Assembly (NCBI GenBank): GCA_012689325.1
Contig: JAAYEA010000547.1
Span: 1-55,953 of the forward strand
DNA: 55,953 bases
Direction of reading: 5' to 3'
Origin: Chloroflexota bacterium
GTDB lineage: Bacteria > Chloroflexota > Anaerolineae > JAAYEA01
In this document: piece by piece, positions 494 through 35,308 of the stretch
How the letters are laid out: each line of letters starts with the position of its first letter
Position numbering within the stretch: position 1 is the first letter of the stretch
The notes under the pieces: generated by a model
What the model was told of the DNA's origin: nothing
Databases searched by the model: none
Seen by the model: the letters and a program-made list of their open reading frames with translations, nothing else
Position numbers and translations under genes: made by a program

Positions 494-522
494 TTGACAT
501 GGCGTTGGAGCTGCGATAGAAT
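494..522 (+). promoter_or_regulatory. Sigma-70 type promoter for the tubulin-type operon
   Basis: TTGACA at 494-499, a 17-bp spacer, and TAGAAT at 517-522 form a near-consensus housekeeping promoter. The inverted repeat GCTGCGAT/ATCGCAGC (510-517 and 550-557) overlaps the -10 region and start point, so it could be an operator or a 5'-end hairpin. The first gene of the long operon starts at 755. Confidence 0.65.
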
Positions 523-665
523 GCCTTCTGTCGCATTTGGCGCTATCGAATCGCAGCGCGCGGCCGGAGATTCGGGCAACGATTGAGCCTCGGTCTCGCC
601 CGACAGCATGTTTTGCTTGCGCGATGCATCCAGGGTGCAAAGGCCCGCTGATAGGGTGGTCCCAC

Positions 666-695
666 CGGGCCAGCTCTTGTCCGATGGCCCGTTTT
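666..695 (+). terminator. Terminator-like hairpin in the operon leader (possible attenuator)
   Basis: CGGGCCA at 666-672 pairs with TGGCCCG at 685-691 and is followed by TTTT at 692-695. It lies inside the leader, between the promoter and the first start codon, where a plain terminator would silence the operon. A smaller alternative hairpin (GGTG 655-658 with CACC 663-666) touches its 5' arm. Conditional termination is an inference. Confidence 0.35.
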
Positions 696-754
696 CTGCG
701 CCTTGTCAGTTCAGCGGCTCTACATATCTAGTTTGCACAAGAGGCGGGTTGAGC

Positions 755-3700
755 ATGGCTGATTTGCCCCAAGACAGCAGTCTCACGTACTACCTGCAGC
801 AGGCGCGCGCCAAAGCCAAAGAAAACCGCTTTGAAGAGGCGCTCGCCGACGCCGCGACGGCCCTCAACCTCGCGTTGCAGCAGGAGGAAATCGACCTGAT
901 CCAGGCCATCCGGGCCGAGATCAAGCAGGCCCGAGATCGGAGGGTCCAAGAGCTCTCTGGATACCTCCGGTCCCTGCTGGCCAGGCCGCTGGACGACCTG
1001 GATCGCGATGCCCTGCAGAAGGCGAGCACGGGCGGCCAGGAAGCGTTCAGCGAGCTGCAAAGCGTCGATCCCCTCGCTGCTCAGCCCCTCGCTGCCGGCT
1101 GGAACACCCTCAAGAGCCGCATCGAGACGCGGCTCGACCTGCTGATGACCAGAGATGAGCTCAACCGCCTGTGGGCGGCGCCTCAGCTCAAGGTTCTGGA
1201 GTACCGTGCGGCCTTGCAGAAGGCCGATGAGGTGGCCGGGAGGCACCCCGGCGAGATGGAATTCCGGGATCTGCAGGCTGAGGCCCAGAGGCGGCTGGAC
1301 GAGGCCAGGAAACTAGAGGGCGACTTGACCACCCAAGCCGGCCAGGCCGAGTTCAGCCGGCTCCTGGGTGCACTCGAGGGGCTGAAGGAAGCGGGCGAGA
1401 CGCAGTTGCCCTGGTACGAATGGGGCGACCAGAAGCGAGAGGATGGCACCTCTGTGCGCGCCGTCATCAGCACCGACAGGTATGCCCCGGCCCCCGAGGC
1501 CCTGGGTCATGTCCGCCAGTTGGCCCAGGCTTTCGAGGAAGGCAAGGCCAGGGAGTATAGGCAGAATGCGCAGGTGGCGCTGCCCGCGGAGCCGGAAGGG
1601 GCGGAGGAGCAAATAAGGAAAGGTTTGGTCTTTGGCAATTTACTGCCGGATACGCGCCAGAGCCTCCAGGGCTACCTGGATGCCGAGGTCCTGCCCGCCG
1701 TCGCGGTCCGCCAAGCAGCCAAGGCCAAGCTTGACGAGGCGCTGAACACCTTGCGCTCTACCCAAGACGCCGCCCAGGCAGCCGGGAAGGCCAGAGAGGC
1801 CCAGCGCAGGGACGGCCACTGGCTGGGTTTCGCCGCCGAGCTGCACCGTGAGCTGGGCCCAGAGCTCGGCCGCGACTGGGGCGCCAAGCTGCGGGCCGCC
1901 GAAGAGCAGCGCGCGGCCGGCGAGTTCAAAGAGGCGCTGGCGGCGGCGCGGCGGGTTCAGGAACAGGCGGCGGGGCTGCCGGGTTTCGATGAGGTTCTGG
2001 CGCAGGCGCAGGCCCTGGTGGAATGCTGCCAGGCGGACACCGCCCTGTTCGAACAGGTCACCCAACAGGGGAAGGAGATCGTCGCCCTGGCCGACCAGGA
2101 CCTGGGCACGGCGGAGCGCCTCCTGGCAGAGATCGAGACGCTGGTGGCCGGCAGGCCGCAGCGCTTCATGCAGCTCCTCTTTGCCCCCCGCCGAAAGGTG
2201 CAAGAGTGCCAGACCCTCGAGCAGGCGATGGCGCAGTGGGAAAGGCGGCTGGACGAATCCCACCCGGCCAGGCTCGGGGACAGCCTCTACGCCGACGCCG
2301 ACAGGGTGCGCGGTGTTCTGGCTGGACTGCAGGATATCAACAAAGAGATCGACGCCCGCGGGGCGCGGCGCCAGCTCGCTCATCTGCGCGCGCGCGTGGA
2401 TGCCCGCCGTCGTTTCATCGAGGGCCGGGCCGACTGGGAAGTGGGGCGTTACAGGTCGGCTCAAGAGCACTGGCAGTCCGTTCAGCAGCTGAACGGCGAC
2501 GATGCCGCGCTGGCCGCCGAGTGGCTCGGACGCGCCCAGGACGCCAGCGAGGTGACCGAAAAGCTGGCGCAGGCCCAGCAGTTGCGCGCCGAGGGCAAGC
2601 TGTCGCAAGCCGCGGAGGTCCTTGACCCCTGGCGGACCCGCGCCTCGCCTCTGCAGGCCGAGGTGAGAAAGCTGCACCAGGCCGTGATTGCGGAGCGTAG
2701 GGCCCAGCTCGTCCAGGACATCGACGGCATGATCCGCGCGCTGGACGAGAACCCCGTCTATTCGCGCCTGATCCGCCAGGTCGAGGCTCTGGAGGAGATC
2801 GACCATGACCTCGCCAGCGAGTACAAAGCCAGCTATTATCCCCTGATCCACGTTCGCCTGGGCGACCTGGCGCTGAAAGCTGACCAGTACGACAGGGCGC
2901 TCGCGCACTATGAGACGGGCCTGTCATACGCCCAGGATGCGGAGCGCTCGGCCCTCTTGCTGGGGAAACGCAAGGCCGCCACGGCGCGGGCCTGGGGCGC
3001 TGCGGAGGCCCACGAACGGGATGGCCAGCTCGGCCCGGCCTGCCAGGCCCTGGACAAGCTGCTGGGTGACTATGCCGATGACATCAGGACCTTATACTGG
3101 CTGGCCGGGCTGGCGCTGAAGAAGGCGGAGACCGAGCAAGATCCGGCTCTCAAGCGCGCCGAACGGGAGCGCGCGACGCGCTGCTGCGATGCCGCCGAGC
3201 GGCGGCTGAACGAGGCCGAGCGCTGGAACGATCCCGGACGGGTCGGTTTTGCCAGCGCGGACGAGATCCTGGAGTGGCAGGCCCTGTTCGAGTTGATGCG
3301 TATCCGGATCAACGCCCAGGATCGGGCCAGCCGGGCCCTGGAGCGGATCGCCGAGCAATTGCGCCCCGAGGGCAGCATCAGCGAGTACCGCATGGCTCGC
3401 GAAGCCAAGGATGCCCTCCAGCAAGCGCTCCTTCAGCAAGCGAGCGACATGATGGCGGAGGAGCAGCCCGGCGCGCGCCTGCAGGCGCTGCCCCAGGCGA
3501 TGCAGAACAACATCGCCAGGGACCGGGCCGAGACTGAGCGCTATATCCTGGCTCTGGCCAGGGACCGGATAGACGAGGACTATCAGAGGATGGAGGGCGA
3601 CCTGAGCCGCGAGCTGCGCTCGAGCTTTGGCAAGACCGCCGACCCTCCCCTGGAATCCCTGGTCTTCCAGGCTGCTCCTCCCGCTGCCGAGCTGATCAGC

Positions 3701-5458
3701 CGCTGGAAGCTCGGCCTCAAGATCAACGTCCTGGCCGAACCGGCCCGGGAGGGGCAGCAGGCCCGCGCCGAGGTGATGCGCACCGCCAGCCGATTGGGGG
3801 GCACGGTCCGGCAACTGGTGGAGGATGTCCGCGGTCCGCTGACCGGCCTGGACGGGCAGGTGCTCGAGTCTATGGCGGCCCTGGAGACGCAGATTCAGTG
3901 GTGCGGCAACGCGGAAGAATGGGCCACGGAGCTGCGAGATATGCTCAATGCCTTCGACTTTGCCAAGGGCGCCAAGGAGGCGCCGGTCGGGGACTCGCTG
4001 AGCACCCGCGCCTACTGCAACCAGCTTGGCAAACACAAGGGGGCCTTGCTGAACCTCCGCAGCAATGCGCGCAAGGCGGATAACCTCATCGCTGCCGCCG
4101 TCGGCGCGGGGCGCCACCAGTACAACTCGTGGCGTCAGGTGGACTGGTCCAGCATCGTCAAGGAGCTCCTGCTGGCCAATAGCAAGCCCTTGCCCAAGGA
4201 CGTGCCAGAGGTTGGCGGCGCCCCGGATCAGCAGCGAGCGGCCTTCTGGAGCGCCCTGGAGGCCGCGGACGACGCGACGAGGCGAGAGCGTTGGCAGACC
4301 GCCAGCGAGTTTCTCCTGGAAGCCAGATATGGCGACAATCTCGAGCGCGTCCCCTGGCAGGACAAGATCAACCCGATCATTCGCCGAGCACGACTCGACG
4401 AGCGATGGGATGAGGCGCTGGATCCCCTGCACGACGACATGATCCAGTTCAGCGCCCACCGCGTGGTGGAGTGGCTGCGGCAGCGCCGCCACGACGATGA
4501 GCAGAAGCGCAATCGCTTGGTCATCGCCCTGGCGGAGCTATATGCCGCCCTCCAGGCGGACAACTGGCAAGCAGCGCTTGCCAAGATCGAAACCATGAAA
4601 AAAGAGGATCCCCAGGACCAGTACGGCTTCTGGCAACGCGCAGTCATGCGCGAACCTCGCGGGCAGGAACCGCTCTCGCTGGATAGCCTCAAGGGTCAGG
4701 TCGACACCCACCTGGCGCAGTGGCAGGTGCTCAAGGAGTGGTGCGGCGATGACGCCGATAGCGCCCTCAGGCGGTGGAACGAGGGCAAGGATGACGAGCC
4801 AAGCATGCGACAGCAAGTCGTTGAGCTGACTCGCAGCGCGCGATTCGACGAGGCCCTGAAGCTCTGCCACGATGCCCTGGAAGGGGCGGGCGTCGACCAG
4901 AGAACTAACCAACTGGGCGGAGGGTTGTCGCTCGTGGCGCTGCTGGCGCGGCTCGAGGAGATCCCCGAGGCAGTGAGAACGCCGCTGACCAGCCGCCGGC
5001 TGGAGATCGAGCTGGCCCGGATCGATGGGGTGCGGCATGATGCCAACGCGGCCCAGAACGACATCAGGTCGTGGCTGTGGGGTGAGGAAGAGGGACGCGG
5101 TACTGGCGAGAACGGCCAGGAGCTCGAGCCCGGCTCGCCAGTTGGCGAGGATGAACCGGGTGCCGAGTACGGCTCGCAGTACGGCGACGTACAGTCACCC
5201 CCTGCAGCGGGGCCTTTGTTCGTCCCTATCCCCAGCCTGAAGCGCCGCTATCTGCACAAGAGGCAGGCCCTGCTGGGCTATCTTGACCAGATCGCATCAT
5301 ACAACAGGTCCGGCTGCTTGCGAAGGCTTTTCAGCAAAGGCCAGCAGGCGCTGCTGCTGGCGATGTGTGAGGAGACACTGCTAGAGCTCAGGGCCATCGC
5401 GCCCAACTCCCCGGAACTGCCGGAATGGGAGCGGCGCATCCAGGGAGAGGCCAGATGA
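755..5458 (+). CDS. Giant helical-repeat (TPR/spectrin-like) cytoplasmic scaffold protein
   Basis: A 1567-residue protein with no signal peptide and no membrane segment. It is almost entirely charged, Ala/Leu/Glu/Gln-rich helix. Scattered TPR-like helix pairs can be seen, for example RFEEALADAATALNLA near the N-terminus, AEGKLSQAAEVLDPW in the middle and DQYDRALAHYETGLSYA near residues 708-724. No enzymatic motif was found. Such proteins usually act as scaffolds or extended rods. The start was set at ATG 755, just after the purine-rich GAGGCGGG; an upstream in-frame extension to 608 runs through the hairpin leader and is rejected. Its stop overlaps the next start (ATGA), so it is translationally coupled to the phosphoesterase. 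It is the first gene of the operon and so probably a major structural part. Family membership beyond helical repeats is unknown. Confidence 0.8.
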   Translation: MADLPQDSSLTYYLQQARAKAKENRFEEALADAATALNLALQQEEIDLIQAIRAEIKQARDRRVQELSGYLRSLLARPLDDLDRDALQKASTGGQEAFSELQSVDPLAAQPLAAGWNTLKSRIETRLDLLMTRDELNRLWAAPQLKVLEYRAALQKADEVAGRHPGEMEFRDLQAEAQRRLDEARKLEGDLTTQAGQAEFSRLLGALEGLKEAGETQLPWYEWGDQKREDGTSVRAVISTDRYAPAPEALGHVRQLAQAFEEGKAREYRQNAQVALPAEPEGAEEQIRKGLVFGNLLPDTRQSLQGYLDAEVLPAVAVRQAAKAKLDEALNTLRSTQDAAQAAGKAREAQRRDGHWLGFAAELHRELGPELGRDWGAKLRAAEEQRAAGEFKEALAAARRVQEQAAGLPGFDEVLAQAQALVECCQADTALFEQVTQQGKEIVALADQDLGTAERLLAEIETLVAGRPQRFMQLLFAPRRKVQECQTLEQAMAQWERRLDESHPARLGDSLYADADRVRGVLAGLQDINKEIDARGARRQLAHLRARVDARRRFIEGRADWEVGRYRSAQEHWQSVQQLNGDDAALAAEWLGRAQDASEVTEKLAQAQQLRAEGKLSQAAEVLDPWRTRASPLQAEVRKLHQAVIAERRAQLVQDIDGMIRALDENPVYSRLIRQVEALEEIDHDLASEYKASYYPLIHVRLGDLALKADQYDRALAHYETGLSYAQDAERSALLLGKRKAATARAWGAAEAHERDGQLGPACQALDKLLGDYADDIRTLYWLAGLALKKAETEQDPALKRAERERATRCCDAAERRLNEAERWNDPGRVGFASADEILEWQALFELMRIRINAQDRASRALERIAEQLRPEGSISEYRMAREAKDALQQALLQQASDMMAEEQPGARLQALPQAMQNNIARDRAETERYILALARDRIDEDYQRMEGDLSRELRSSFGKTADPPLESLVFQAAPPAAELISRWKLGLKINVLAEPAREGQQARAEVMRTASRLGGTVRQLVEDVRGPLTGLDGQVLESMAALETQIQWCGNAEEWATELRDMLNAFDFAKGAKEAPVGDSLSTRAYCNQLGKHKGALLNLRSNARKADNLIAAAVGAGRHQYNSWRQVDWSSIVKELLLANSKPLPKDVPEVGGAPDQQRAAFWSALEAADDATRRERWQTASEFLLEARYGDNLERVPWQDKINPIIRRARLDERWDEALDPLHDDMIQFSAHRVVEWLRQRRHDDEQKRNRLVIALAELYAALQADNWQAALAKIETMKKEDPQDQYGFWQRAVMREPRGQEPLSLDSLKGQVDTHLAQWQVLKEWCGDDADSALRRWNEGKDDEPSMRQQVVELTRSARFDEALKLCHDALEGAGVDQRTNQLGGGLSLVALLARLEEIPEAVRTPLTSRRLEIELARIDGVRHDANAAQNDIRSWLWGEEEGRGTGENGQELEPGSPVGEDEPGAEYGSQYGDVQSPPAAGPLFVPIPSLKRRYLHKRQALLGYLDQIASYNRSGCLRRLFSKGQQALLLAMCEETLLELRAIAPNSPELPEWERRIQGEAR

Positions 5459-6372
5459 AAGTAGCGCTTCTCGCGGATGTCCACGGCAACGCTCCGGCGC
5501 TGCGGGCAGTGCTCAGAGACTGCGGCGAGCGACAGGTGGATGAACACTGGTTCTTGGGCGACCTGCTGGGCTACGGCCCCCAGCCGGTCTCCTGCTATCG
5601 CCTGCTGGCCGAAAAGCGGCCCGCGGTCTGGCTGCTGGGCAATCACGATTTCGTGGGGCTGGGGATTCTACGCAGCGACTTGGCGAACCTGGACCACATC
5701 GTGGCGCGTGGGCTGGTGCCGGGCCGGGCCGAGTTGGATATCCTCGGCTGGCATGCCCGGCAGCTCGAGGTGGGGCTGGAACCCGGCGAGATTCACGCCC
5801 TCCACGCGCATGATACGTGGGTCAACGCCATCCCCGGCATCTATGCTGCGCACGGCGCCTTGCTGTCCTCCGAAGCAGCATCGGCGGACAATATCAGCGG
5901 GGCGAACTCGTATCTCAGGCTGGGCTCCTCCGGCCCCCAGATTACCGCCCAAGTCCTGGCCGCCTTGCACCTCGACGAGGAGGAGCGGCCCTGGTTGGTG
6001 GTGGCGGGACACGTGCACGAAGCAGCGATCTGCCAGATTCGCTGGGCTCCTCCCCAACAGCCGGAGTGGAAGGGGCTCACGTGGGACGATGGCTCGGCCT
6101 ATGGCGATCCTCCGCCCGCCTGCCTTGGCTTGGCCGGCTGCCTCAGCCTCCTCTGTCCTGGCAGCGTCGGCGGGCGGCTCAACGACCTGCTCACTCACCA
6201 GCCCACCTACGCAATTCTGGACACTGACAACCGGACCGTGCAGTATCGGCGGGTCGCTTACGATGTGCGCGAGACCCTGGCGGCCATGGTACTCCCGCCG
6301 CGCGCGCCGAACTTGGAGAGCGACCTCACGGACTTGATGGAAGACTGGAAGACTCGGAGGCAGATGGCATGA
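5455..6372 (+). CDS. Calcineurin-like metallophosphoesterase
   Basis: A 305-residue soluble protein carrying the full metal-binding signature of the family: ADVHGN (D-x-H) at residues 7-12, GDLLGYG near 40, LLGNHD near 63, a histidine in HAHDTW, and VVAGHVHEA (G-H-x-H) near 183. Members of this family hydrolyse phosphomono- or diesters, including phosphoserine/threonine, cyclic nucleotides and nucleic acids; the substrate cannot be read from sequence. Start and stop codons overlap both neighbours by four bases (ATGA at 5455 and 6369), so it is firmly part of the operon. A protein-kinase-like gene lies downstream in the same operon, which makes a reversing phosphatase attractive, but that is inference. 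Confidence 0.9.
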   Translation: MKVALLADVHGNAPALRAVLRDCGERQVDEHWFLGDLLGYGPQPVSCYRLLAEKRPAVWLLGNHDFVGLGILRSDLANLDHIVARGLVPGRAELDILGWHARQLEVGLEPGEIHALHAHDTWVNAIPGIYAAHGALLSSEAASADNISGANSYLRLGSSGPQITAQVLAALHLDEEERPWLVVAGHVHEAAICQIRWAPPQQPEWKGLTWDDGSAYGDPPPACLGLAGCLSLLCPGSVGGRLNDLLTHQPTYAILDTDNRTVQYRRVAYDVRETLAAMVLPPRAPNLESDLTDLMEDWKTRRQMA

Positions 6373-10101: not shown

Positions 10102-13100
10102 ATGTACCGTCCAGCATTGGTCATTGGATTGGGAGGCACCGGCGTGCTCACCTTGCGCCATCTGAAGGCGCAACTGCTCGCCAGTCAGGAACGGCGCTTG
10201 CCGGACTGCGTCAAGCTGCTGGCGCTGGACACGGTCAGGGATAAGGATCGCTCCGCCGAGACCGAGGGCAAGGCCAAGATCGCTGCCCTGCGCACCGAGC
10301 TCGCTCCCGGCGAGTACCACTGGGTCGGCGGCGATGTCTACGACTTTGTGCGGGAGGTCGAGCAGGGCCAGCATCCCCAGATCGGTTCCTGGTTCCAGGC
10401 TCGCCAGTACCTGCAGACGCTGCCCCGGGCCTCTTTCACTCTGGAGGATGGCGCCGGGCAACTGCGTCAGTTCGGCAGGCTCGCCGTTTTTCACGACGTG
10501 GATGCCCCTGCCGCGTCCGCCATCAACAGCCTGCTCAACAAGGCCATTGATGACATCCGCAGGGTGCAGCAGATCACGACGCTGGACGTGTTTCTCGTCG
10601 CCTCCGTGGCGGGAGGCACGGGCGCGGGGATGTTCGTGGATATCGCCTATCTGGTTCGGCAGATCGCCCAGCAGGCGCACCGCACCGCGGTGCAGCTCAA
10701 GGCCTTTCTCGTCCTGCCCGAGGCCTTTAGCGCAATCCCCGGCGGGGTCAAGCGTTCCATGCGCGCCAGGTCCTTCGCCGGCATGCGCGAGAACCGGCGC
10801 TTTATGGTGGACTTTCAGTTCGAGCACGGCTACCCGATGTACTATCACGCCTCCGGCGAGGGCGGCATCTGGCGCAGCGCGATCAAGACCAAGCTCTTCG
10901 ATGTGCTCTATCACGTCGACGGTCAGAGCGTCAACAACCCGCTGACGAGCGTGCTGCCAGAGCTGGGCGTCACGGCGGCCATCGCCGACGCCATCACCGC
11001 CATGCTCGATCGCTCGCCCGACCAGAGCGAGGATGTATACGCCCGCCATACCAAGAACGTCATGGCCGAGCAGAACCGGGGCGAGGACGCGGACCGCACG
11101 GCCTCCTTTGACTCGGCCCTGGGCACCTTTTCCTATATCCTGCCCATGCACCATATCAGCGAGCTGCTGGCCCACCGGCTGGCCGTGGAAAGCCTGACGG
11201 CCTTGCTAGCCCCTGCCGAGAAGGATGAACAGGGCTATCTGCGGTCGCTCAAGCCGGATGCCAGCGAGGAGGCGCCCGGCGTGCGCGGCCGCGATGTGGC
11301 CGCCCGGCTGCTAACATCGGCGGAAATCCAGTCGAACGCGGCACTGGAGCGCATCGCGGTGCCCGGCCTGATCAACGAGTTGGCGCGCCTGGCGCACGAG
11401 TATCGGCCCAATGACGACGCCGTCTCTCAGCAGATCGCCTCGCAGGATGCCGCCTACTGGCAGGGGCAGATGGACCCGCCGGGGGAGGATCAAAAGGTCG
11501 TCAACATCCGCAACCGCGCCATGGCGACGCTGAACAGCCGCCTGATCGACGATGTGCCGGCGAACCAGCGCGGCGAAAGCCCCGCGGGGGCGGTGGACCG
11601 TATCGCCGAGGGCGTCGAGCGGTACAAGGGCACCCACCTGGGGCGCGAGGACCTGCGCACCGGCCAGCGCGTCGGCGGGCAGTACCGCAAGGCCCTGGAC
11701 GAGTACGCCGAGATCCACCTAGACCGCTTCCGCCTGATGCTCGAGACCGAAAGCGAGAACATCCTCAACGGCAGCCTCTTGCCTGATGACCCGCTCGCCA
11801 AGCAGCGCGGCGGCAAGCTCGGACATTATCTCGACTTTCTGGATGGTGTGGAGGGGTTGCTGGGCCGCTTTGTGAAGGCCCTGGAAGGGGCGCAAAAGCT
11901 CCGCGAGGAGCGCCAGGACAAGCAGACCGCCGGGGTCGCGGCCAGGACCGCGCTGGATGACCTGAAGGCCAAGCCAGGCGGGCTCTTTGGCGGGAGGCGC
12001 CGTCAGGCCTACCTGGACGCCGAACAGCAGGTGATTGATGTGGAGAAAGTGCTGATCGGCGAGCAGGCGATCCGTGCCCTGGTCGATCGCATGACCCAGC
12101 ACACCGTGCAGGTGCACGAGAGCGCCATGGCTTGGGCCAAGGCCCTGGGCCTGGACTTTGAGAGCCTGTACGGACGCCTGCTGCGAGGGGAGCGACAGAT
12201 TCAGGGCGCCATCGCCGTGGAGAACCAGGTCCCAGTGCGCCAGGTAGTCTGGGATGAAGGCTACATCGACGAGCTCTTTGCCAGATACACGAGGGCGACG
12301 GAGAGCGAGAAGAACACCGGCGTCGACACCTACCTCGGTCGTCTCTCCTGGAAGGCCGAAAAGCGTCGCGTGGGCGTCCGGGACGAGTACGGCATCAGCC
12401 TCTTGCTGACGCTGCCCAATAGCGAGCCAACTCGGCTTGGACGGGAGAACCTGGACCGCACGCAAGAGCTGCTGCTCGCGCCGGCCCGCCAGGTTTTTGC
12501 CCCCATGTGGCAGCAAGAGTCCATCCTCACCTACCTCAGGATGCGGCTCTACAAGAACGGCGACCAACTGGCCGCCGAGCTCGCGCGCAGGGCGGACGTG
12601 TTGCTTCAGCACCGCGGCAGCACCGTGGTTCCTGCCAACTATTTGCACGCGGCCCACGAGTCGGCGGACGAGAGGCAGTATCTCCGCGTCGTGCAGGGAG
12701 CCCTGGAGGACCTGACCAAGGCCCGGGGCAAGCTCAACGATGTGGTGAACTCGTCTGACCGCTTCGCCCTCCGATTGGTGAACACCAAGGACCTGATTCC
12801 GCTGGACGAGATGGCCTCCTACCAGCAGGCTGAGCTCGACTACTGGTCCCAGGGCGGGGAGGTGGACGACGGGCAGGGGTCGCGCCGCCGCCTGACCCGG
12901 GAGACGCTGCACATCTTTCCCGCGGAGGTTCACGCGGCCCGCTTCGAGGCGCGCATGGGCACCTCCAATCTGGAGATCAAGACGCGAGCCCTGCACAACG
13001 ATGTGGTGCTACAGATGGAGGACCTGGAGCGGTTCCAGCTCTTTGCGCAGGCCTGGGCCTACGGCCTGATCCGGTCCGATATCTCTGAGCGCCAGGGGAC

Positions 13101-13650
13101 GAAGGAGAACTATATCTGTCTGGACCTGCCCGAACGCCGGTTGGACATCATGACGAAGGAGCCGGCGGTCAAAATGCAGTTAACAAAGCCCAAGGCGGGG
13201 CCGGTGGACGTGGTGGATAGCATGATGACCTGGAACTATCGTCAGCTTGACCAGACGCTCGACGTCTTTCGCGAGATCCCCTACAGCCGCGTCGCCGAGG
13301 CCATAGATGAGAAGCGGAAGGAGACCATCGCTGGAGCCGTGGAGCAGCTCAAGATCGACGAGGCGGCCATCTCCAGCGCCCTGACCAAGATGAAGCCGGC
13401 CGAAGCTGACGAATTCAAGCGTCTGTTGGCCGAGAACGCTTACCTCGCGGACCGGCAGGGCGGGATCAAGAAGATCGACCTGCACCTCGACCCGACACGA
13501 CAAGACTATGCAGCGGCCCGTGCTGCGCTGGGCAAGGCCGATCCCAAGCAGGATGCCTATATCGCCCTGTATCTGGCCATGGAGGACAACCGCGAGAGTC
13601 TGGATGTGCGCATGAGGGATATCCTCCGGAACGCTGGCGACCCCCGCTAA
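10102..13650 (+). CDS. Tubulin/FtsZ-like GTP-binding protein (Tubulin_2-like)
   Basis: A 1182-residue soluble protein. It opens with YRPALVIGLGGTGVLTL, a glycine-rich nucleotide loop, and near residues 166-178 carries VASVAGGTGAGMF, which fits the tubulin/FtsZ signature loop GGGTG(T/S)G. These features fit the Tubulin-like family (PF13809 as I recall it). The protein is about three times the length of FtsZ; residues after about 400 are mostly helical and contain a basic stretch GGLFGGRRRQAYL. By family it should bind GTP and may polymerise. The start at ATG 10102 is supported by GGGAAGGAGA at 10086-10095; the frame is open from 10027 but that region has no ribosome site. A gap of 76 bp follows the vWA gene. 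The gene next but one hairpin downstream encodes a second, degenerate tubulin-like domain, suggesting a heteromeric pair. Confidence 0.85.
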   Translation: MYRPALVIGLGGTGVLTLRHLKAQLLASQERRLPDCVKLLALDTVRDKDRSAETEGKAKIAALRTELAPGEYHWVGGDVYDFVREVEQGQHPQIGSWFQARQYLQTLPRASFTLEDGAGQLRQFGRLAVFHDVDAPAASAINSLLNKAIDDIRRVQQITTLDVFLVASVAGGTGAGMFVDIAYLVRQIAQQAHRTAVQLKAFLVLPEAFSAIPGGVKRSMRARSFAGMRENRRFMVDFQFEHGYPMYYHASGEGGIWRSAIKTKLFDVLYHVDGQSVNNPLTSVLPELGVTAAIADAITAMLDRSPDQSEDVYARHTKNVMAEQNRGEDADRTASFDSALGTFSYILPMHHISELLAHRLAVESLTALLAPAEKDEQGYLRSLKPDASEEAPGVRGRDVAARLLTSAEIQSNAALERIAVPGLINELARLAHEYRPNDDAVSQQIASQDAAYWQGQMDPPGEDQKVVNIRNRAMATLNSRLIDDVPANQRGESPAGAVDRIAEGVERYKGTHLGREDLRTGQRVGGQYRKALDEYAEIHLDRFRLMLETESENILNGSLLPDDPLAKQRGGKLGHYLDFLDGVEGLLGRFVKALEGAQKLREERQDKQTAGVAARTALDDLKAKPGGLFGGRRRQAYLDAEQQVIDVEKVLIGEQAIRALVDRMTQHTVQVHESAMAWAKALGLDFESLYGRLLRGERQIQGAIAVENQVPVRQVVWDEGYIDELFARYTRATESEKNTGVDTYLGRLSWKAEKRRVGVRDEYGISLLLTLPNSEPTRLGRENLDRTQELLLAPARQVFAPMWQQESILTYLRMRLYKNGDQLAAELARRADVLLQHRGSTVVPANYLHAAHESADERQYLRVVQGALEDLTKARGKLNDVVNSSDRFALRLVNTKDLIPLDEMASYQQAELDYWSQGGEVDDGQGSRRRLTRETLHIFPAEVHAARFEARMGTSNLEIKTRALHNDVVLQMEDLERFQLFAQAWAYGLIRSDISERQGTKENYICLDLPERRLDIMTKEPAVKMQLTKPKAGPVDVVDSMMTWNYRQLDQTLDVFREIPYSRVAEAIDEKRKETIAGAVEQLKIDEAAISSALTKMKPAEADEFKRLLAENAYLADRQGGIKKIDLHLDPTRQDYAAARAALGKADPKQDAYIALYLAMEDNRESLDVRMRDILRNAGDPR

Positions 13651-13671
13651 TACCGTGGTAGGCTAACCGCG

Positions 13672-20157: not shown

Positions 20158-20182
20158 ACCAGAAAGGGCTAGGTGATCAGCC

Positions 20183-22645
20183 ATGACCAACTATATGCCA
20201 CCAAGCGATCTGCAAGGCCAGACGCTGCGATTCTCCGCACCCCTGGGCCCGCGCAAGCTAGACAAGGTCCTGGGCGGCGGAGAGAACAAGATGGGCTCGA
20301 CCTCCTGGGTCTTCCTGGGCGTCGACCCCCAGAATCCAGGAGAGGAGTCCAAGCGCGTCGCCGTCAAGGTCTCCAACCCCGACCCCATGTCTCGCGACAG
20401 CCTGGAGGCGGAGTGGAGGTGCCTGAGCACGCTGGCCCGCTGGGATAGCACCACGCATTACTTCCCGCGGGTGCTGCATCCGGCCGCCGCCGAGGGCCTC
20501 GACATGCAGCCAAGCCTGCCCGGGCTGCCGCCGCAGGCCACCTGGCGCATCATCGTCCAGGAGCTCGTCCGCGGCGACTCGGCGGATGACCTGCTGCTCA
20601 GGTTCCCCGGCCTGGTCCTGCCCGAGCCCCTGGCCCTGGCCATGTGGGCGCAATACGCCGATATGCTCGGCATCCTCCACAACGCGGGGATGACCTGCGG
20701 CTGGGACCGCAAGCCCTCTGACCTGCGCTGGGTGCACCACCCGGCGCTGGAATTCGATCCTGAGAAGCCGGGCTATGCTGCGACCTATCAGAAAGAGCTG
20801 CTCTCCCACCTCCGGCAGTCGTGGGAGCCGGGGCGGCTCATGGTGCTGGACTGGAACAAGGTTCGCGCCAAGACCGACGAGAACGTGGCTGCGGACCTCG
20901 TCAAGACCGGGCTCCTCTGGTGCGAGCTGCTGCTGGCGAGTAAGCCGTCCTTCCAGACCCTGGAAGGGGGAGGGTTCAAGCAACTGGAGGAGCCGCTGTC
21001 CGCACAATCGCGCTGGAGCACCCTGTCCGCGGGGACTAGGGCGATCCTGGAGCGGGCGCTGCACCCCCTGCCGCAGAGCCGCTTCGGCAGCGCCAACGAG
21101 CTGCGCAACGCCGTCCGCCAGCAGATTACTCGCTGGCAGATGACGCCCCAGGCCCTCTGGGACAGCGTCCAGCGCACCGACCTGGATCCCAGCGAGGCGT
21201 ACCTTCGGGCCGACTTGCTGCGTCTGCTGATCGAATCCTGGGGAGCGGACCGCAGGGCAGACCTGGACCGAAAACTGTCCAGCCTCAAGCCGGGAATTGA
21301 CCAGGCCTCCTGGGGGCCACTCCACAGGGCCATGGACCTCTCCAACTGGGCCGAGGCGGACCAGGAGCTGGCCAGGCTATGGGCCACCAACCAGGGCGAT
21401 GTTCCAATCGCGCTCTGGCTGAATCGCTGCCGGGCCATCGTCGCCCGCGCCACCCAGCTCAAGGCCCTGTCCACCGAGATCAAGGCTTTGCACGACTATG
21501 CCAACTACACCGAGCCGCCCTGGGAGTGGAGCGGGGGCGAGCAGCGCCGCGCCGAAACCCTCGTGACGCAGTGGAAGGATTCGGGGTGGCAATCCCTCGC
21601 CCAGATGCTGACCGCTGAGAGGATATACCCGGCTCTGCTACACAAGGCGCGCGAGTTGAAAGGCCGCGGCAACATGCGGGAAGCCCTGCCCATATACAAA
21701 CGTGTAAGCGACCGTCGAAATACTCTGGCCCATCCCGACTATGGCGATGCGTTGCGCCTGCTGGACCAGCTTTACGCGGACCCCGAGCCGGAGATGCGCA
21801 GTCTGCGGGACTGGCAAGGGACGCTGGAAAAGATCAACGACTACCTCGGCCTCGCGGTCGAGGCGCTGATCTCCGATGTAGACAGCGACCTGAGCGACAT
21901 CCAACGGAACCTGGCGGGCGCGCAGCGTGTGGATCCGCGCAACCCGGCTCTGAGCCTACTCTGCGCGCTGCTCAAGGCCGAGAGCGAGTGGCGTCAGGCG
22001 AAAGGCGGCTTCCTTTCCTCGCGGATCGTGCGCCTGGGTGCGCTCGACCGCGCCTGGCGCAGCCGAGCCGTCGCCCCGCAGCCGGCGGAACCCAAGCCCG
22101 CCTCGGCTCAGGATGGCGGCGCCCAGGGCCAGGCACTGGTCTGGGAGGAGTGCGAGAGGCTGGTGGGGGCCAAGGCCGGGCAGATCGGCGCCCTGTTGCG
22201 CAACCGCTGGGTCGGGCTGCAGGATGAGCTGGTAAGGCGCCTCATCGCAGCCCCGACCGCTGCTGCCCAAGTCGCCGACGGGCCGCTCTCCGCCGAGCTG
22301 AGCCACGAGACCCTGCTCCGCTGCTATCTGGCGGAGTGCCCTGACGAGAAAGCAGCCGACCAGATCATGGCCGCCCTCCGCGACAGGGCCAGCGAGTTCC
22401 AGCGGGCGGTGCGGGACGCATTGGAGAGCCCCAAGCAAGGCTCGGTAGGTACCATCAAAGACCGGGAAAACCGGCTTGCGGGGATCATTCGTGTCGCAGA
22501 GCACGGCAAGATGCTGGCTGGGCTGGCGAATCAGGAGTGGCCAGTGGACCTCGAGCCAGCAAAGATCGAACAGGCTATGAAGGAGACGAGAGGATGTCTG
22601 ATGGCGATCGCGGAGGGGTTGGGAGTGTACCGGGAGGGTGCCTGA
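20183..22645 (+). CDS. Protein-kinase-like domain protein with long helical C-terminus
   Basis: An 820-residue soluble protein. Residues 30-46 form a glycine-rich loop (GGGENKMGSTSWVFLG), VAVKV gives a candidate ATP lysine at 62, and E75 or E77 may be its helix-C partner. The catalytic-loop equivalent is WDRKPSDL at 174-181: the catalytic Asp (175) and Lys (177) are kept, the usual Asn is Asp (180), and the HRD histidine/arginine are replaced. VLDWNK at 221-226 stands for the DFG region. So it is a divergent kinase that could be active, or an ATP-binding pseudokinase. After about residue 310 it is helical and TPR-like with no known domain. ATG 20183 has AGGTGA six bases upstream. It follows the fusion gene by 25 bp and overlaps the next gene by 52 bp. 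The phosphoesterase in the operon is its logical opponent (inference). Confidence 0.75.
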   Translation: MTNYMPPSDLQGQTLRFSAPLGPRKLDKVLGGGENKMGSTSWVFLGVDPQNPGEESKRVAVKVSNPDPMSRDSLEAEWRCLSTLARWDSTTHYFPRVLHPAAAEGLDMQPSLPGLPPQATWRIIVQELVRGDSADDLLLRFPGLVLPEPLALAMWAQYADMLGILHNAGMTCGWDRKPSDLRWVHHPALEFDPEKPGYAATYQKELLSHLRQSWEPGRLMVLDWNKVRAKTDENVAADLVKTGLLWCELLLASKPSFQTLEGGGFKQLEEPLSAQSRWSTLSAGTRAILERALHPLPQSRFGSANELRNAVRQQITRWQMTPQALWDSVQRTDLDPSEAYLRADLLRLLIESWGADRRADLDRKLSSLKPGIDQASWGPLHRAMDLSNWAEADQELARLWATNQGDVPIALWLNRCRAIVARATQLKALSTEIKALHDYANYTEPPWEWSGGEQRRAETLVTQWKDSGWQSLAQMLTAERIYPALLHKARELKGRGNMREALPIYKRVSDRRNTLAHPDYGDALRLLDQLYADPEPEMRSLRDWQGTLEKINDYLGLAVEALISDVDSDLSDIQRNLAGAQRVDPRNPALSLLCALLKAESEWRQAKGGFLSSRIVRLGALDRAWRSRAVAPQPAEPKPASAQDGGAQGQALVWEECERLVGAKAGQIGALLRNRWVGLQDELVRRLIAAPTAAAQVADGPLSAELSHETLLRCYLAECPDEKAADQIMAALRDRASEFQRAVRDALESPKQGSVGTIKDRENRLAGIIRVAEHGKMLAGLANQEWPVDLEPAKIEQAMKETRGCLMAIAEGLGVYREGA

Positions 22646-24483
22646 GCAGTCCGCTGCCCGACCCTGGCGCGGCTAAGCAGCCCTCGCTCGAAGAGGAGAC
22701 GCTTCGCGACCTTCAGAGCCAGGGCCTCGCCGAGATCGAGAGAGCTTCCATCGGCGATCTGCTCGCGCTGGCGGCGCAGGCCCGGCAGGCGCGGCTGGAG
22801 CTGGAGCGGGCCGAGGCGGCTTTCCGGGAGAGGGATCTGCAGCCCGACGGGATCGAGGAGGTCCTGCGCCGTGCTGAGAGCGCCAGGTCTGCGCTGCAGG
22901 CGCTCTCCTATCCCGACGGCGAGTTCTTCGATCCCCGCCGCCGGGCGTTGCAGGGCTTGGTGGCGCGCGCCGATGCGCTGCTCGATGCCCTTGATCTCTC
23001 GCGGTGGGTCAGCTTTGCCGAAGAGTTGCCCAAGCTCTGGCAGGCCGTGAGCAACTCGGGCGGCCGGGGAGAGGCAGAGGGGTTCTTGGAGGAGGCCAAA
23101 GGGAGCCTCGTGGGCTGGCTGCCGGAGACGAGCCCCAGGCTGGCGCAAGCGCGAGCGGCGCTGGCGCGATTGGAGGACGAACTGGGCCGGCAGGAGGCCG
23201 CCAGGAGCAAGTCGGCCGTCGTCCAGGCCCGGGCCTGGACGGGCTGGGCGCAGGAGGCCCTGCAAAACGACCCCTTCGTCGCCCTGCGCTGCCTGGCCGA
23301 GGCCGAGGCGCTGCTGGGCGAGTTTGGACCTCCTGCGGCCACGAACGAATCTCGGGGGTCCTTGGACCCAAGAACAGAGAGCGGAGCAGCGGCGCCTGAG
23401 AAATCAGACGCTGTGGCGTTGCGCCGCGACATTGATGAGATCAAGGAGCGGGTGCTGGATGGCGAGGCGCGCCAGTGGCTGCTGCAGAAGGGACGAGCGA
23501 GAGTAGATCGAGAGGTCAAGGAGCCTCTGGCTGCCCACTTGATGGATTGGACCAAAGGCGACCATAGCTGGTTGTCGGACAACAGCGAGGGCGCGCGGAC
23601 GGTCCGTCGGCGAGTAGATGAGCTGATCGGCTACTTGGTTATCGACCCCGAGTATCTGGATAGCGAGACTGACGACCCTCAAGCCCTGCTCGGCGCCATC
23701 GAGCAGAGACGCGCAGCAAAGTATCTCGCCAATCTCACTTTCAACCAGGCAGATGATCTGCGCTCAGGGTCGGAAGGTCAAGAGCCAGGCAACATCTATC
23801 GTCGCTTGCGGCTTCTCCAAGAGGCGCTGCGGCATGATCCCGACTATCGTGATGCCCAAGATTGCGCCGCCGAAGCAGAACGGATGTGGAGCGAAATCGA
23901 GCAACAGCTCCAACAAGACAGCGACAAGCTGGCGCAGCAGGCCCAGTCCGTACAGAACCTGCTGAAGCGACTTGGCAGCGAAAGCGATCAATCCGGCGGG
24001 GCTGATTGGTCGAGCATGGACGAGATCTGGGATCAAGCGAGCAACGAGGAAGCCGCCCTGCGGCCGCTCATGGCCGTAGGGGAGGGATGGATGGAAAAAG
24101 GGCTGGCGGATGCCAGCATTCCACCGCCGGGCGGGCAAGAGCTGCAAGACCGGCTAGCTCACGCGCAGGGTCTTTCGAGGCACCTTGGCCGAGTCCGCTA
24201 CCTCCAGGAACGCTGGAACGGCCTGCGCCACGCCCTGACCAGCCCCAAGTGCGCCTTGGACGCCAAGCTTGTCTTTTGGGCCGAGTGGTTTATGCAAAAA
24301 GGTGCGCTGGCCGAGTCGGTGAGGGCCGCGGCCAAGGCGGAACTGGAAGACTTGGCGAAGAAGGCGCTGGAGGCTAATCAGTCAGTGGATCTGGAGGCCG
24401 CCCAGCAGGCCAAGCTGACCGAGATGGCAATTCTGGTGCGCGCGGCATCTTCAGCCAACCCAAGCGGGAGCAAACAACCATGA
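22594..24483 (+). CDS. Helical/coiled-coil protein of unknown function
   Basis: A 629-residue hydrophilic protein rich in Ala, Glu, Arg and Gln, with long predicted helices and coiled coil (for example AEIERASIGDLLALAAQARQ near residue 45) and no signal peptide, membrane helix or catalytic motif. It resembles the operon's first gene in composition and is probably another structural or adaptor component. I chose ATG 22594, preceded by AGGAGACGAGAGG, inside the 3' end of the kinase-like gene; an in-frame ATG-containing extension upstream lacks a better site. Its stop overlaps the next start (ATGA at 24480), so translation is coupled. Function not recognised. Confidence 0.75.
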   Translation: MSDGDRGGVGSVPGGCLSSPLPDPGAAKQPSLEEETLRDLQSQGLAEIERASIGDLLALAAQARQARLELERAEAAFRERDLQPDGIEEVLRRAESARSALQALSYPDGEFFDPRRRALQGLVARADALLDALDLSRWVSFAEELPKLWQAVSNSGGRGEAEGFLEEAKGSLVGWLPETSPRLAQARAALARLEDELGRQEAARSKSAVVQARAWTGWAQEALQNDPFVALRCLAEAEALLGEFGPPAATNESRGSLDPRTESGAAAPEKSDAVALRRDIDEIKERVLDGEARQWLLQKGRARVDREVKEPLAAHLMDWTKGDHSWLSDNSEGARTVRRRVDELIGYLVIDPEYLDSETDDPQALLGAIEQRRAAKYLANLTFNQADDLRSGSEGQEPGNIYRRLRLLQEALRHDPDYRDAQDCAAEAERMWSEIEQQLQQDSDKLAQQAQSVQNLLKRLGSESDQSGGADWSSMDEIWDQASNEEAALRPLMAVGEGWMEKGLADASIPPPGGQELQDRLAHAQGLSRHLGRVRYLQERWNGLRHALTSPKCALDAKLVFWAEWFMQKGALAESVRAAAKAELEDLAKKALEANQSVDLEAAQQAKLTEMAILVRAASSANPSGSKQP

Positions 24484-26099
24484 TCGAAAAACCTCAGAAG
24501 AAGGCCCTTCAGGCGATCAGCAACTGGTGGAGCAAGGGCGGCGACCCGGCGGCGCTGGATGCCCAACTAGATGCCCTGGCCCAGGCGAAGGAACTGGACG
24601 AGGCCCAGCGCCTCGTGCTGCTCCGCGCCGAGTTGGAGCGCCAGGCCAGCCGCCGCGGCGAGGCCTGGCGCACGGTCATCCTGGCCATCGGCGTGGTGGC
24701 CTTGGTGGCGTCCATTGCCTTTGCCGGCTGGGGCGCGCGGCTGTTGCCAGCCAAGCAGGGAACACCCACCCCGTCCGCGCCTACATCCACGCCAAAGGAG
24801 CCTGACCTTCAAAGCGATCTGCTCAAATACGGTGCTGCGCTGAGAGATCTAGAAGCGAACTACCATCTCCTCCGGAAGGATCTTGATGACCTTAAGAGCA
24901 AGCCCGAAACGGAACAGGGCAGCTCGGGTGGGGGCGGTGAGGACATCATGCGGTTGGAAACAAGCATTGAAGATCTACGAAAGGAAATCAACGGGCTGAC
25001 AACGCAGATAGAGGCGCTGCAAGTCACCCCTACTGGTCAGGGACTCCCGAGCAGTGGCCAGTCGTCGGTGCAAGAGACCTCTGCCGCGACCAAGATAACG
25101 CTCAGAGTGGTGGGGATAGAGGCTTGTGGACAATGGACAGGGCCGACGCTGAGGGCCGGAGAGACGTCAGACAAACTTACCGAGCAACCCAGGTCTCCGA
25201 CAAACGGCGACTTCACCTGGGAGCCCTCTGGCAAGGTGTTCGAGCTGGGGCTAGCCGGCCTTGCCGCATGTGGCGGGTATGTCAACGACCCCGTAACGGA
25301 GCCAGGCTGGGTTGTCAAACCCGATAAATTCACCGGGTTCACTTCGGCCCTGGAGAGCAAGGCCGATCTGCCGCAGGAGTCCTTGGTCACCCTGACGCTC
25401 AAGCAGGTGCCGGGAGTGCCAGTGGAGGCAGCAAAGGGGAAAGTGGACAATGTAACTAAAGCCGCCCCGGTTCGCATGTTTCCGAGCGATAGTGACGACA
25501 CGAGGAACACGTCGAGTCAGGACATGGGAGTAGGGACTCCAGTCGATATCTTGGGCCAATTTGAGGATAAGTGGCGATTCGCGCAGGGGCGATTCCCGCA
25601 GGATCCTTCGCGCCAGGTGTGGCTCTGGGCCGAGTTGCTGAACGGGAGGCCCATCCTGGCTCTGGATGACGATGCCGCTGCCTTGCCGGCCCTCTACCTC
25701 CCCGAAGACTTGGCCATTAACTCCGAGCCGAAAGGTTGGAAGGCCGGAGTCACCGATGGGTTGTGGGTGTTGTCTCGGGATATCACCAATTCGGATAGCA
25801 CCGAGCTTGTCTGGTCCCTGGGGTTGCAGCAGGGCTGGTTCGCGATCCAGGTCTGGGTCCCGAAGGGCAGCGCGGCAGACGCGAACTACAAGATCCTGGT
25901 AAAGGTTAGTGATGACGATTGGCCGGAGTTGCCCCCGCTCAAGGGCGCTAGCAGTGTGACGATCAACCAGAGCACAGACAGCAGCAGCTTTGCCGACCTG
26001 GGCACCTATTACCTGCAGAATGAGCATCATGTGCGGGTGTCTCTGAAAACCGATGGCGATGTCAAGACCGGCTGGGTTCGCGTGATCAAGATTCACTAA
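24480..26099 (+). CDS. Membrane-anchored protein with coiled coil, SH3-like and golvesin-like domains
   Basis: A 539-residue protein. The N-terminal 62 residues are cytoplasmic and helical, followed by one membrane helix (about 64-86) and a Pro/Thr/Ser-rich segment, so the rest should be outside. Residues about 110-185 are coiled coil. A beta-rich region follows, then an SH3-like segment at about 325-385 (PVRMFPSDSD, then VDILGQFEDKWRFA and WLWAELLNG). The last about 110 residues (FAIQVWVPKGS, YKILVKV, FADLGTYYL, HVRVSLKTD) resemble the golvesin/Xly C-terminal domain seen in secreted surface proteins, a likely ligand or carbohydrate binder. It is coupled to the upstream coiled-coil gene by ATGA overlap. 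Probable role: envelope anchor that ties the cytoplasmic parts to wall or surface. The domain names are inference from pattern. Confidence 0.7.
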   Translation: MIEKPQKKALQAISNWWSKGGDPAALDAQLDALAQAKELDEAQRLVLLRAELERQASRRGEAWRTVILAIGVVALVASIAFAGWGARLLPAKQGTPTPSAPTSTPKEPDLQSDLLKYGAALRDLEANYHLLRKDLDDLKSKPETEQGSSGGGGEDIMRLETSIEDLRKEINGLTTQIEALQVTPTGQGLPSSGQSSVQETSAATKITLRVVGIEACGQWTGPTLRAGETSDKLTEQPRSPTNGDFTWEPSGKVFELGLAGLAACGGYVNDPVTEPGWVVKPDKFTGFTSALESKADLPQESLVTLTLKQVPGVPVEAAKGKVDNVTKAAPVRMFPSDSDDTRNTSSQDMGVGTPVDILGQFEDKWRFAQGRFPQDPSRQVWLWAELLNGRPILALDDDAAALPALYLPEDLAINSEPKGWKAGVTDGLWVLSRDITNSDSTELVWSLGLQQGWFAIQVWVPKGSAADANYKILVKVSDDDWPELPPLKGASSVTINQSTDSSSFADLGTYYLQNEHHVRVSLKTDGDVKTGWVRVIKIH

Positions 26100-26124
26100 T
26101 CCATGAGTTGCGTTTCGGCCTGAT

Positions 26125-26155: not shown

Positions 26156-26223
26156 ACCGAGGGAAACTGGTCCGGGCGAGAGCGCAAGCTTGGGGTATAG
26201 AGGCTGCGAGAGGAGGCATCGCC

Positions 26224-27770: not shown

Positions 27771-27795
27771 AGTGGGGTGCCTTGCGGAGGCTCGT

Positions 27796-28077: not shown

Positions 28078-28119
28078 ATACCCGTCAGCAGGCCAGTTCT
28101 GTCGTCTGGGAGGAGAGCC

Positions 28120-28632
28120 ATGGGTTCCATCGAGCGCATCGTTTCGCTGATCCTGTTCGGCCTGATTCACGTCCTCGCCGTCTCCAGCATCATCGGCATG
28201 GTCATCTTTATTGTGGGGGTCATCACGGGGGAGGATGACGGCGTGGAGCGCCTGCTGCGGGCCGCGGCGGCCGCCGCCGGACTGCTCATCTACCTGGGCG
28301 GCAGAGCCTACGGGCTATCCATCCCCGACTTGATGGCCTCCGCGCTGGAGGTCACCAAGCCGTTGATCAAGGATTTGGTTAGCATTGTTGCGCCCTTGGC
28401 GAGCGGCAGCTTTGTGGCGTTCTTTTGCATCCAGACCATGAAACGCGATAGTGACATCGGCGCCAGGGGCATCGTCCTCTTTAGCGCCCTGGTCTTTACC
28501 ATGTTCTCGGATACCTATGCCGTGCTCGCCTCGCAGGCCACGCCCAACAACCTGGCCTTAGCCTTGCCCAATATCACCTTTGTATTGGGGGTGATCTTGT
28601 ACTCTATCTTTTCCTACAAGACCGGCTATTAG
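28120..28632 (+). CDS. Membrane protein of unknown function (170 aa)
   Basis: A 170-residue protein with about five hydrophobic stretches, including two near the N-terminus (SLILFGLIHVLAVSSIIGMV), LVSIVAPLASGSFVAFFCI and two at the C-terminal end (IVLFSALVFTMFSDTYAVL, ITFVLGVILYSIFSY). GGGAGGAGAG just upstream of ATG 28120 is a strong ribosome site. It belongs to the cluster of small membrane proteins that follows the tubulin-type operon. No catalytic motif or known family seen. Confidence 0.7.
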   Translation: MGSIERIVSLILFGLIHVLAVSSIIGMVIFIVGVITGEDDGVERLLRAAAAAAGLLIYLGGRAYGLSIPDLMASALEVTKPLIKDLVSIVAPLASGSFVAFFCIQTMKRDSDIGARGIVLFSALVFTMFSDTYAVLASQATPNNLALALPNITFVLGVILYSIFSYKTGY

Positions 28633-28699
28633 CGGAATCAGAAGGCGGCCTGCTGCTATTGCCTGGGCAGGGATCAGCCCCTATACGATCGGTAGGCAA

Positions 28700-28734
28700 G
28701 GACGTCACGCCGCTTCTTGCATCCGGACGTCACG
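28700..28734 (+). repeat. Direct repeat of a palindromic decamer in a spacer
   Basis: GGACGTCACG occurs at 28700-28709 and again at 28725-28734, each with the palindrome GACGTC, 25 bp apart (about 2.4 helical turns). It sits in the 284-bp gap before the next gene and may be a regulator site. No promoter boxes could be assigned nearby with confidence. Confidence 0.3.
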
Positions 28735-28916
28735 ACATCGCCTATCCGGCCGACACCGCGCGCCGGATGGGCGGAATCGGCACCCCGAATGAAGGGCACG
28801 GGTGGCCTATTGGGTAGTATCTGGGTCTGCAGGCGCTGTTGAGGTTGGCGGCGGGTTCGGAGATCCAGTCCGGACACGGAGTCATTGCAGGTTCCGGGGG
28901 AGGAGGTGGAGAGACC

Positions 28917-29369
28917 ATGTTGATGAATTATCTAGGGGGTGCGGTCATATCGGCCCTGATCGGGGCACTGGTCGTCAGCGTCATGGGGACCGCGTTTCGC
29001 AATATTCGACTTCCGATCAGGACGATGCCGAAGGATCCCCCCACATCGTACTCTACCAGGCTACGAGAGCTCGCAACCCAACTGGTCAAAGCTTCTAGCG
29101 ACGTCGACTGCCTGCTGGGCGAGATGTCGAGCGTGGCCTCGGAACGCCAGCAGTCCTTCGAGTCACTGCAGAACCGGATAGACGAATTGGCGCACCGCGA
29201 GAAGGAACTGAAGGATGTCTTGCAGCCGCTCGAAGGCAAGTGGCAGGTGATTGCCGACTATTTCGCACAACAGACCGAAAAAGAGGCGAAGGGCGACGCC
29301 TTTCGCGATTGGCTGCTCTTTTTCCTTGGCGCGATCGTCGGCGTGGTTACCCAGATCCTCGTGCGTTAG
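28917..29369 (+). CDS. Two-helix membrane protein with central coiled coil (150 aa)
   Basis: A 150-residue protein. An N-terminal hydrophobic helix (about 5-25, YLGGAVISALIGALVVSVMG) is followed by about 100 charged residues with heptad-like coiled coil (SLQNRIDELAHREKELKDVL) and a C-terminal helix (DWLLFFLGAIVGVVTQILV). AGGAGGTGGA at 28901-28910 fixes ATG 28917; a TTG-initiated extension to 28839 lacks such a site. The layout suits a membrane-tethered spacer or assembly factor. It is the last gene before the mobile debris at 29.4 kb and probably the end of the tubulin-type locus. Confidence 0.7.
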   Translation: MLMNYLGGAVISALIGALVVSVMGTAFRNIRLPIRTMPKDPPTSYSTRLRELATQLVKASSDVDCLLGEMSSVASERQQSFESLQNRIDELAHREKELKDVLQPLEGKWQVIADYFAQQTEKEAKGDAFRDWLLFFLGAIVGVVTQILVR

Positions 29370-35307: not shown

Positions 35308-35308
35308 G

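Follow-up and report, generated by a model that had tools for sequence, protein, structure and literature searches.

Operons of the FtsZl1/Tubulin_2-vWA kind were described by Makarova & Koonin (2010, PMC2875224), who found a Tubulin_2 protein with a long helical C-terminus, a vWA protein with an intact metal ion-dependent adhesion site (MIDAS), a kinase, and membrane proteins encoded in one operon. The organisms also possessed a true FtsZ, and an associated P-loop GTPase was frequent but not universal. Kaur et al. (2020, PMC7159879) extended this picture with GAP1-N2 systems that join tubulin and vWA genes, including Firmicutes systems with two tubulin and two vWA genes (one vWA being extracytoplasmic) and related themes that carry a kinase and PP2C. 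We analyzed an operon of this kind in a Chloroflexota metagenome genome (G000, 5.29 Mb, 96.8% complete), within a window that is one entire contig of 55,953 nucleotides (JAAYEA010000547.1, G000:C482).

By its sequence, the operon belongs to the FtsZl1/Tubulin_2-vWA kind, and its architecture is new within that kind. It shares with the published FtsZl1 operons the long-tailed Tubulin_2 protein (here Tub1), the MIDAS-intact vWA protein, a kinase, membrane proteins, and a true FtsZ in the same genome, and with the GAP1-N2 systems the pairing of tubulin and vWA. In contrast to the FtsZl1 operons, it encodes a second, dead tubulin fused to transmembrane (TM) helices and to CAP, vWA, and CxxCH propeller domains, together with a metallophosphoesterase and a divergent kinase (DRKxxD, LDWN), and no OmpA protein was seen. 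No P-loop GTPase family was found among the window's operon genes, and neither was a GAP1 GTPase, HSP70, or FNIII component. The GTPase that figures in both published descriptions is missing here. Three features look new: the asymmetry of the two tubulins, the joining of the dead one through TM helices to CAP, vWA, and propeller domains, and an invariant CxxCH in the propeller. In the portion of PMC2875224 used here, the only membrane region reported as joined to a member of the family was in a disrupted Sulfolobus gene (archaeal members), with no propeller, and the corresponding portion of the GAP1-N2 account (PMC7159879) described no inactive tubulin, TM-ectodomain tubulin fusion, or heme-motif propeller. 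The live/dead asymmetry itself was not described in the portions used of the open-licence papers PMC2875224, PMC7159879, and PMC9871819. A preliminary description, made from the sequence alone, had proposed an undescribed system; this was too strong, given that systems of the FtsZl1-vWA-kinase kind were already known in 2010 and that the 2020 work extended them.

The supported system spans about 755-26099 (25 kb), with all genes on the plus strand in the order helical scaffold, metallophosphoesterase, vWA1, Tub1, fusion, kinase, helical protein, and single-pass membrane coiled-coil protein (Table 1). As first noticed, the genes are coupled by 4-base ATGA overlaps (5455, 6369, 24480) and otherwise by short gaps. 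The span originally proposed, 494-29369, was trimmed at both ends. The giant helical scaffold was retained with its conserved start at ATG 755, as position 494 is not a gene start, and the five small membrane genes at 26224-29369 were dropped as system parts because no convincing homologue was found in any relative's operon. The start of Tub1 was placed at ATG 10102 rather than TTG 10027.

PF13809 was present in 54 of 249 genomes of the class, which showed two operon layouts. Conservation of the genes as neighbors in other Chloroflexota had been set in advance as a check on the proposal, and the order phosphoesterase-vWA1-Tub1-fusion-kinase was kept in eight genomes (G000, G012, G127, G136, G196, G090, L099, and G484) that span families and, with G484, another class of the phylum. 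Three genes are inserted between Tub1 and the fusion in G136, and in G484 the order is kept across a 100-N assembly gap. Cut contigs (G175, G244, L095-L098, L100, L101) were concordant as far as their sequence extends or showed local changes. The scaffold was recognizable in G000, G012 (whose gene in the same place is 34% identical over 1581 aa), G127, and L099 (profile matches in the latter two), with other large proteins filling the same place elsewhere. When 84,980 species were scanned with a profile of the fusion, eleven fusion loci were returned, all from Chloroflexota, followed by a steep drop to plain propellers; a phylum search at E 1e-40 added one more (G484), and fusion orthologues occur in about 14 Chloroflexota genomes. 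Because the order recurs in eight Chloroflexota genomes, the operon is a real, conserved system, and it is rare. A 3513-aa open reading frame (ORF) that would join Tub1 and the fusion in G484 was rejected as an artefact, as it reads through the assembly gap. At the Tub1 end of that locus (L198, G484:C83, ~12400-12900), tandem zinc-ribbon-like repeats (CAG.DHHPLAEGVNFCPICG) were observed, interrupted by the same gap.

Tub1 and the tubulin end of the fusion scored 153 and 95 bits against Tubulin_2, both above the curated cut-off of 27, so that the tubulin-like call for Tub1 is secure at the level of family membership by sequence. In the alignment, the T1 (GxGGxG) and T4 (GGT[GC][AS]G) loops were kept in 10 of 10 Tub1 orthologues, with GLGGTG and GGTGAG retained among them (GGTGAG in most). 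T4 was degraded in all ten fusion tubulins (GGFGSA, GGFGSG, GGM-SG, EGM-SG, EAMGA, DDVGSG), and T1 was mostly kept. Given this broken GTP loop, the fusion tubulin, an FtsZl1/Tubulin_2 homologue, is probably not a GTP-binding subunit. The CAP-vWA-propeller-tubulin fusion of the earlier claim was borne out as one 2133-aa ORF. The two tubulins are paralogous across the C-terminal region as well, as expected of subunits that contact each other. The Tub1 model has predicted long helices at 527-707 (pLDDT mostly >80) and 1061-1177, and the AlphaFold model of the fusion is dominated by its propeller; a sequence search for a solved Tubulin_2 structure turned up none. Tub1 was rejected as the division FtsZ, because the genome carries a true FtsZ on a different contig (E 6e-132). 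Besides its true FtsZ and the Tubulin_2 pair, G012 also has a divergent FtsZ-like gene of 360 aa (TIGR00065 E 9e-13; G012:C754, L081).

Live/dead pairing was also found in the canonical FtsZl1 operons of the same class, in which a vWA gene is followed by an 820-980-aa tubulin and then by a third gene. This third gene is a dead Tubulin_2 (profile-profile probability 99.8, E 1.8e-28, 323 columns, no T4 motif) that Pfam mostly misses, with no tubulin call over the cut-off; such hidden genes lie at L064:12124-15009, L067:6762-10067, L073:11310-14510, and 11 similar loci. The order vWA-tubulin-dead tubulin is thus shared with the window, whereas the canonical dead tubulin is encoded on its own as a soluble protein and belongs to a separate lineage by tree, with no propeller or CAP. 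Fusion tubulins grouped with Tub1 (98/98), apart from the canonical dead tubulins, and forcing all dead tubulins into one clade was rejected by the approximately unbiased (AU) test (p 0.010, with a long-branch caveat). A single ancient origin of the dead tubulins is disfavored by this result, which points to a live/dead pair that probably arose at least twice, by separate losses. A simpler vWA-TM-dead tubulin protein in G538, with no CAP, propeller, or CxxCH, is a plausible intermediate. The hidden dead tubulins of ordinary FtsZl1 operons suggest that live/dead pairing may be a general rule of the family in Chloroflexota.

In the fusion, a TM scan identified a signal segment (7-25) and TM helices at 680-698, 720-738, and 1063-1081, with basic loops at 699-719 and after 1081 (positive-inside). 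This predicted layout supports placement of the CAP, vWA, and propeller domains outside the membrane and of the tubulin inside, in agreement with the trans-envelope arrangement proposed at the outset. Only some of the fusion orthologues have CAP (its GHxxNI/L motif was found in 6 distinct loci), and the G127 and G136 fusions begin with vWA. In the G196 and G090 fusions (L050/L052 region), a second vWA was observed between the last TM helix and the dead tubulin, where it is predicted to be cytoplasmic. Conservation within the fusion is highest in the propeller, whose model matched TolB (Foldseek). The propeller shares fold and repeats with TolB-type PD40 propellers, whereas TolB itself lacks a TM anchor, tubulin, and CxxCH, and the operon contains no Pal or TolA gene.

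At the start of the propeller sits a CxxCH motif that was absent from the preliminary description. This is the motif of c-type cytochromes, it lies in a predicted extracytoplasmic domain, and heme c is probably bound by the propeller. Because heme c attachment takes place on the outer side of the membrane, the motif also supports the outside placement of the propeller. It is somewhat doubtful that CxxCH instead serves as a disulfide, metal, or structural motif with no heme, which would leave the fusion a plain adhesin or anchor. Proteins that resemble cytochromes in fold or motif yet carry no heme are known and provide a lead in that direction. Cytochrome c maturation genes, found in 13 of 13 carriers tested (the window's genome has two Cytochrom_C_asm genes with the sizes of CcmF and CcmC), also occur in 94 of 100 genomes of the class, and being near-universal they are only permissive and barely informative on heme. 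Against a heme-free motif, none of the three residues varies in any fusion whose propeller is complete, among fusions as low as 35% identical, and the motif is on the predicted heme c-attachment side of the membrane. Moreover, CxxCH was found in only 3 of the next 82 PD40 homologues, and these were the three nearest, including Elusimicrobia and Myxococcales. The three loci (L102:3953-5545, L103:2778-4355, L104:9122-11245) encode probably secreted, tubulin-free CxxCH PD40 propellers, apparently a heme-c propeller subfamily that has no name yet.

The remaining core genes were compared with their orthologues. The surface protein vWA1, whose gene adjoins Tub1, matched VWA_2 (1.9e-5) and a Filamin-like repeat (1.8e-14), and its MIDAS (DxSxS) is invariant; with its signal peptide and two C-terminal TM helices, it was called correctly at first, as was the metallophosphoesterase. 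Orthologues of the latter keep DxH, GD, and GHxH in all cases and GNHD in 5 of 6 (GNND in G090), with weak similarity to ApaH and protein phosphatase models. The kinase-like call was upheld by comparison of families: alone, the window's protein had no Pfam match, and the profile of seven orthologues matched PknB over the whole domain (4.5e-8). Residues K62, E77, D175, K177, D180, and D223 are invariant in the 7 orthologues, among them the VAIK Lys (K62), alphaC Glu (E77), HRD Asp (D175), and DFG Asp (D223) expected of an active kinase; the HRD His is lost, Asn is replaced by D180, and DFG is replaced by DWN. The G127 orthologue gave weak ABC1 and Pkinase matches. Canonical relatives encode strong Ser/Thr kinases (to 4e-53), PP2C, FHA, and SH3 proteins nearby, and in the window the calcineurin-like phosphoesterase occupies the phosphatase-like place. 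Phospho-control, as had been suggested, is plausible, considering the kept catalytic residues of the kinase and the kinase, PP2C, and FHA genes of the canonical relatives.

The reading that we favor, tentatively and as a little short of probable, is a machine of vWA and tubulin proteins, of the FtsZl1 kind, that spans the membrane; the fusion would act as envelope receptor or anchor and its dead tubulin would cap or nucleate Tub1. The outside domains would bind a small redox-active ligand, the cell wall, or the surface of a partner. From its fixed position on the inner face of the membrane, the dead tubulin would enter assemblies of Tub1 and cap or nucleate them with no need for GTP of its own, and Tub1-GTP assembly would cluster or anchor receptors, linking the outside signal to an inner filament. 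Assembly may be set by the kinase and perhaps the phosphoesterase, with envelope remodeling, adhesion, or filament organization as the outcome rather than division; a division-ring role is unlikely because of the true FtsZ elsewhere in the genome. A more specific version is doubtful at present: a single-polypeptide TM receptor with a dead tubulin end, which, fixed in the membrane, would pass an outside heme/redox or wall signal straight to a tubulin-like filament by acting as a template for GTP-driven assembly of the active paralogue. Such pairs would have evolved repeatedly in bacteria, recalling the division of labor between alpha- and beta-tubulin. To our knowledge, bacterial and archaeal tubulin relatives contact the membrane mainly via separate adaptor proteins, and we know of no description of live/dead tubulin asymmetry. 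If true, a tubulin joined to an outside sensor, the dead beside the live, would be a direct route from cell surface to cytoskeleton. The sixteen-year-old prediction of membrane remodeling by FtsZl1-vWA systems would also become testable, with Tub1, the fusion tubulin end, and a heme stain.

Several results weigh against this machine. The AlphaFold model of Tub1, a poor one (6 sequences; low confidence, mean pLDDT 62 over the GTPase domain), gave chance matches and no Foldseek match at E <= 0.001, and in a direct profile comparison with FtsZ the alignment was confined to the T4 block (E 0.006). The deep relationships of the dead tubulins depend on long branches, and the maturation genes add little, as noted above. 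In addition, FtsZl1 has no recognizable T6-H7 region or tubulin-type C-terminal domain, so filaments are not assured (Makarova & Koonin 2010, PMC2875224).

Among the other explanations, it is unlikely that the operon is an anti-invader (conflict) system of the GTPase/tubulin/vWA type predicted by Kaur et al. (2020). In such a system, tubulin would assemble in response to an invader signal and thereby change the envelope or arrest the cell. The tubulin and vWA neighborhoods of Kaur et al. (two tubulins in Firmicutes) were tied to a multicellular habit (PMC7159879), the distribution of the operon is patchy, its kinase weakly matches the defense kinase PD-T4-6, and the next island of the window has a HerA-like ATPase and a CDI-toxin-like nuclease. 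However, the conserved core contains no effector, GTPase, or peptidase, PADLOC gave no match beyond the generic kinase fold, and the gene set is kept as whole operons with no module swapping except gain and loss of CAP. It is quite improbable that the redox propeller is the core, as a surface electron-transfer or heme enzyme that the tubulins merely position along the membrane. The propeller with its CxxCH is indeed the most conserved part of the fusion, and probably secreted CxxCH propellers of other phyla are its nearest relatives that lack tubulin, but there is a single CxxCH, the operon has no other cytochrome or redox partner, the kinase, phosphoesterase, and vWA genes are better suited to regulation than to catalysis, and the G538 relative lacks propeller and CxxCH altogether. 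A similarly slim chance is given to tubulin-like proteins that serve as GTP switches or structural adaptors of a signaling complex rather than as filament formers, which would suit the unrecognizable T6-H7 and C-terminal domain and the Tub1 fold search with no match, whereas the recurrent live/dead paralogue pairs and long helical C-termini suggest repeated subunit-subunit contacts.

Table 1. Features of the operon in the window, with the evidence for each
Feature	Coordinates	Strand	Evidence
Scaffold, giant alpha-helical, TPR-like, ~1567 aa from conserved start	755..5458	+	weak TPR; identity to G012; profile matches in G127 and L099
Calcineurin-like metallophosphoesterase	5455..6372	+	Metallophos E 3e-14; position conserved in 8 genomes
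vWA1: signal peptide, vWA with DQSGS MIDAS, beta-rich repeats, two C-terminal TM helices	6369..10025	+	VWA_2/VWA; Filamin-like repeat; TM scan
Tub1: soluble tubulin-like, T1 and T4 loops intact, long helical C-terminal region	10102..13650	+	Tubulin_2 E 1.3e-44
Tub1 T4 (GTP-phosphate) loop SVAGGTGAGMFVD	10603..10641	+	alignment
Fusion: signal peptide-CAP-vWA-TM-TM-propeller-TM-pseudo-tubulin-helical C-terminus, 2133 aa	13756..20157	+	Pfam domains; single unbroken ORF
Fusion CAP (YkwD-like) domain, predicted extracytoplasmic	13891..14268	+	CAP E 3.2e-20
Fusion vWA domain, DxSxS MIDAS, predicted extracytoplasmic	14782..15303	+	VWA E 1.3e-20
Fusion TM helices 1 and 2 (aa 680-698, 720-738), short basic cytoplasmic loop between	15793..15969	+	hydropathy scan
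Fusion TolB-like PD40 beta-propeller, predicted extracytoplasmic	16009..16905	+	PD40 E 5.5e-17; AlphaFold model similar to TolB, E 2.4e-14
CxxCH (CVGCH), putative heme-c attachment motif	16120..16134	+	C789, C792, H793 invariant
Fusion last TM helix (aa 1063-1081), runs into cytoplasmic tubulin domain	16942..16998	+	hydropathy scan
Fusion pseudo-tubulin domain (Tubulin_2)	17125..18171	+	Tubulin_2 E 7.7e-27
Degraded T4 loop of fusion pseudo-tubulin, GSICGGFGSAAF	17602-17637	+	canonical GGT core absent from all orthologues
Divergent protein kinase (VAVK, DRKxxD, LDWN), helical C-terminal half	20183..22645	+	family profile vs PknB 4.5e-8
Helical/coiled-coil protein, weakly conserved	22594..24483	+	31% over 131 aa, E 4e-4, vs same-place gene in G012
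Single-pass membrane coiled-coil protein (TM 65-83), extracytoplasmic C-terminal domain	24480..26099	+	28% to G012, E 7e-22; weak Golvesin_C 7e-5

Further observations were made in the window downstream of the operon. A possible insertion sequence remnant (29440-30000) directly follows the last small membrane gene, at the border to DNA of lower G+C. In a stretch of lower G+C, a HerA/DUF87-type ATPase gene is followed by one for a restriction-endonuclease-like protein of the CDI-toxin type (PF21111, 3e-15), by appearance a separate defense/conflict pair (32389-36037). One protein, encoded at 43092-44396, has collagen-like repeats (1e-14) followed by a Sulfatase-modifying-factor-like domain (3e-58).

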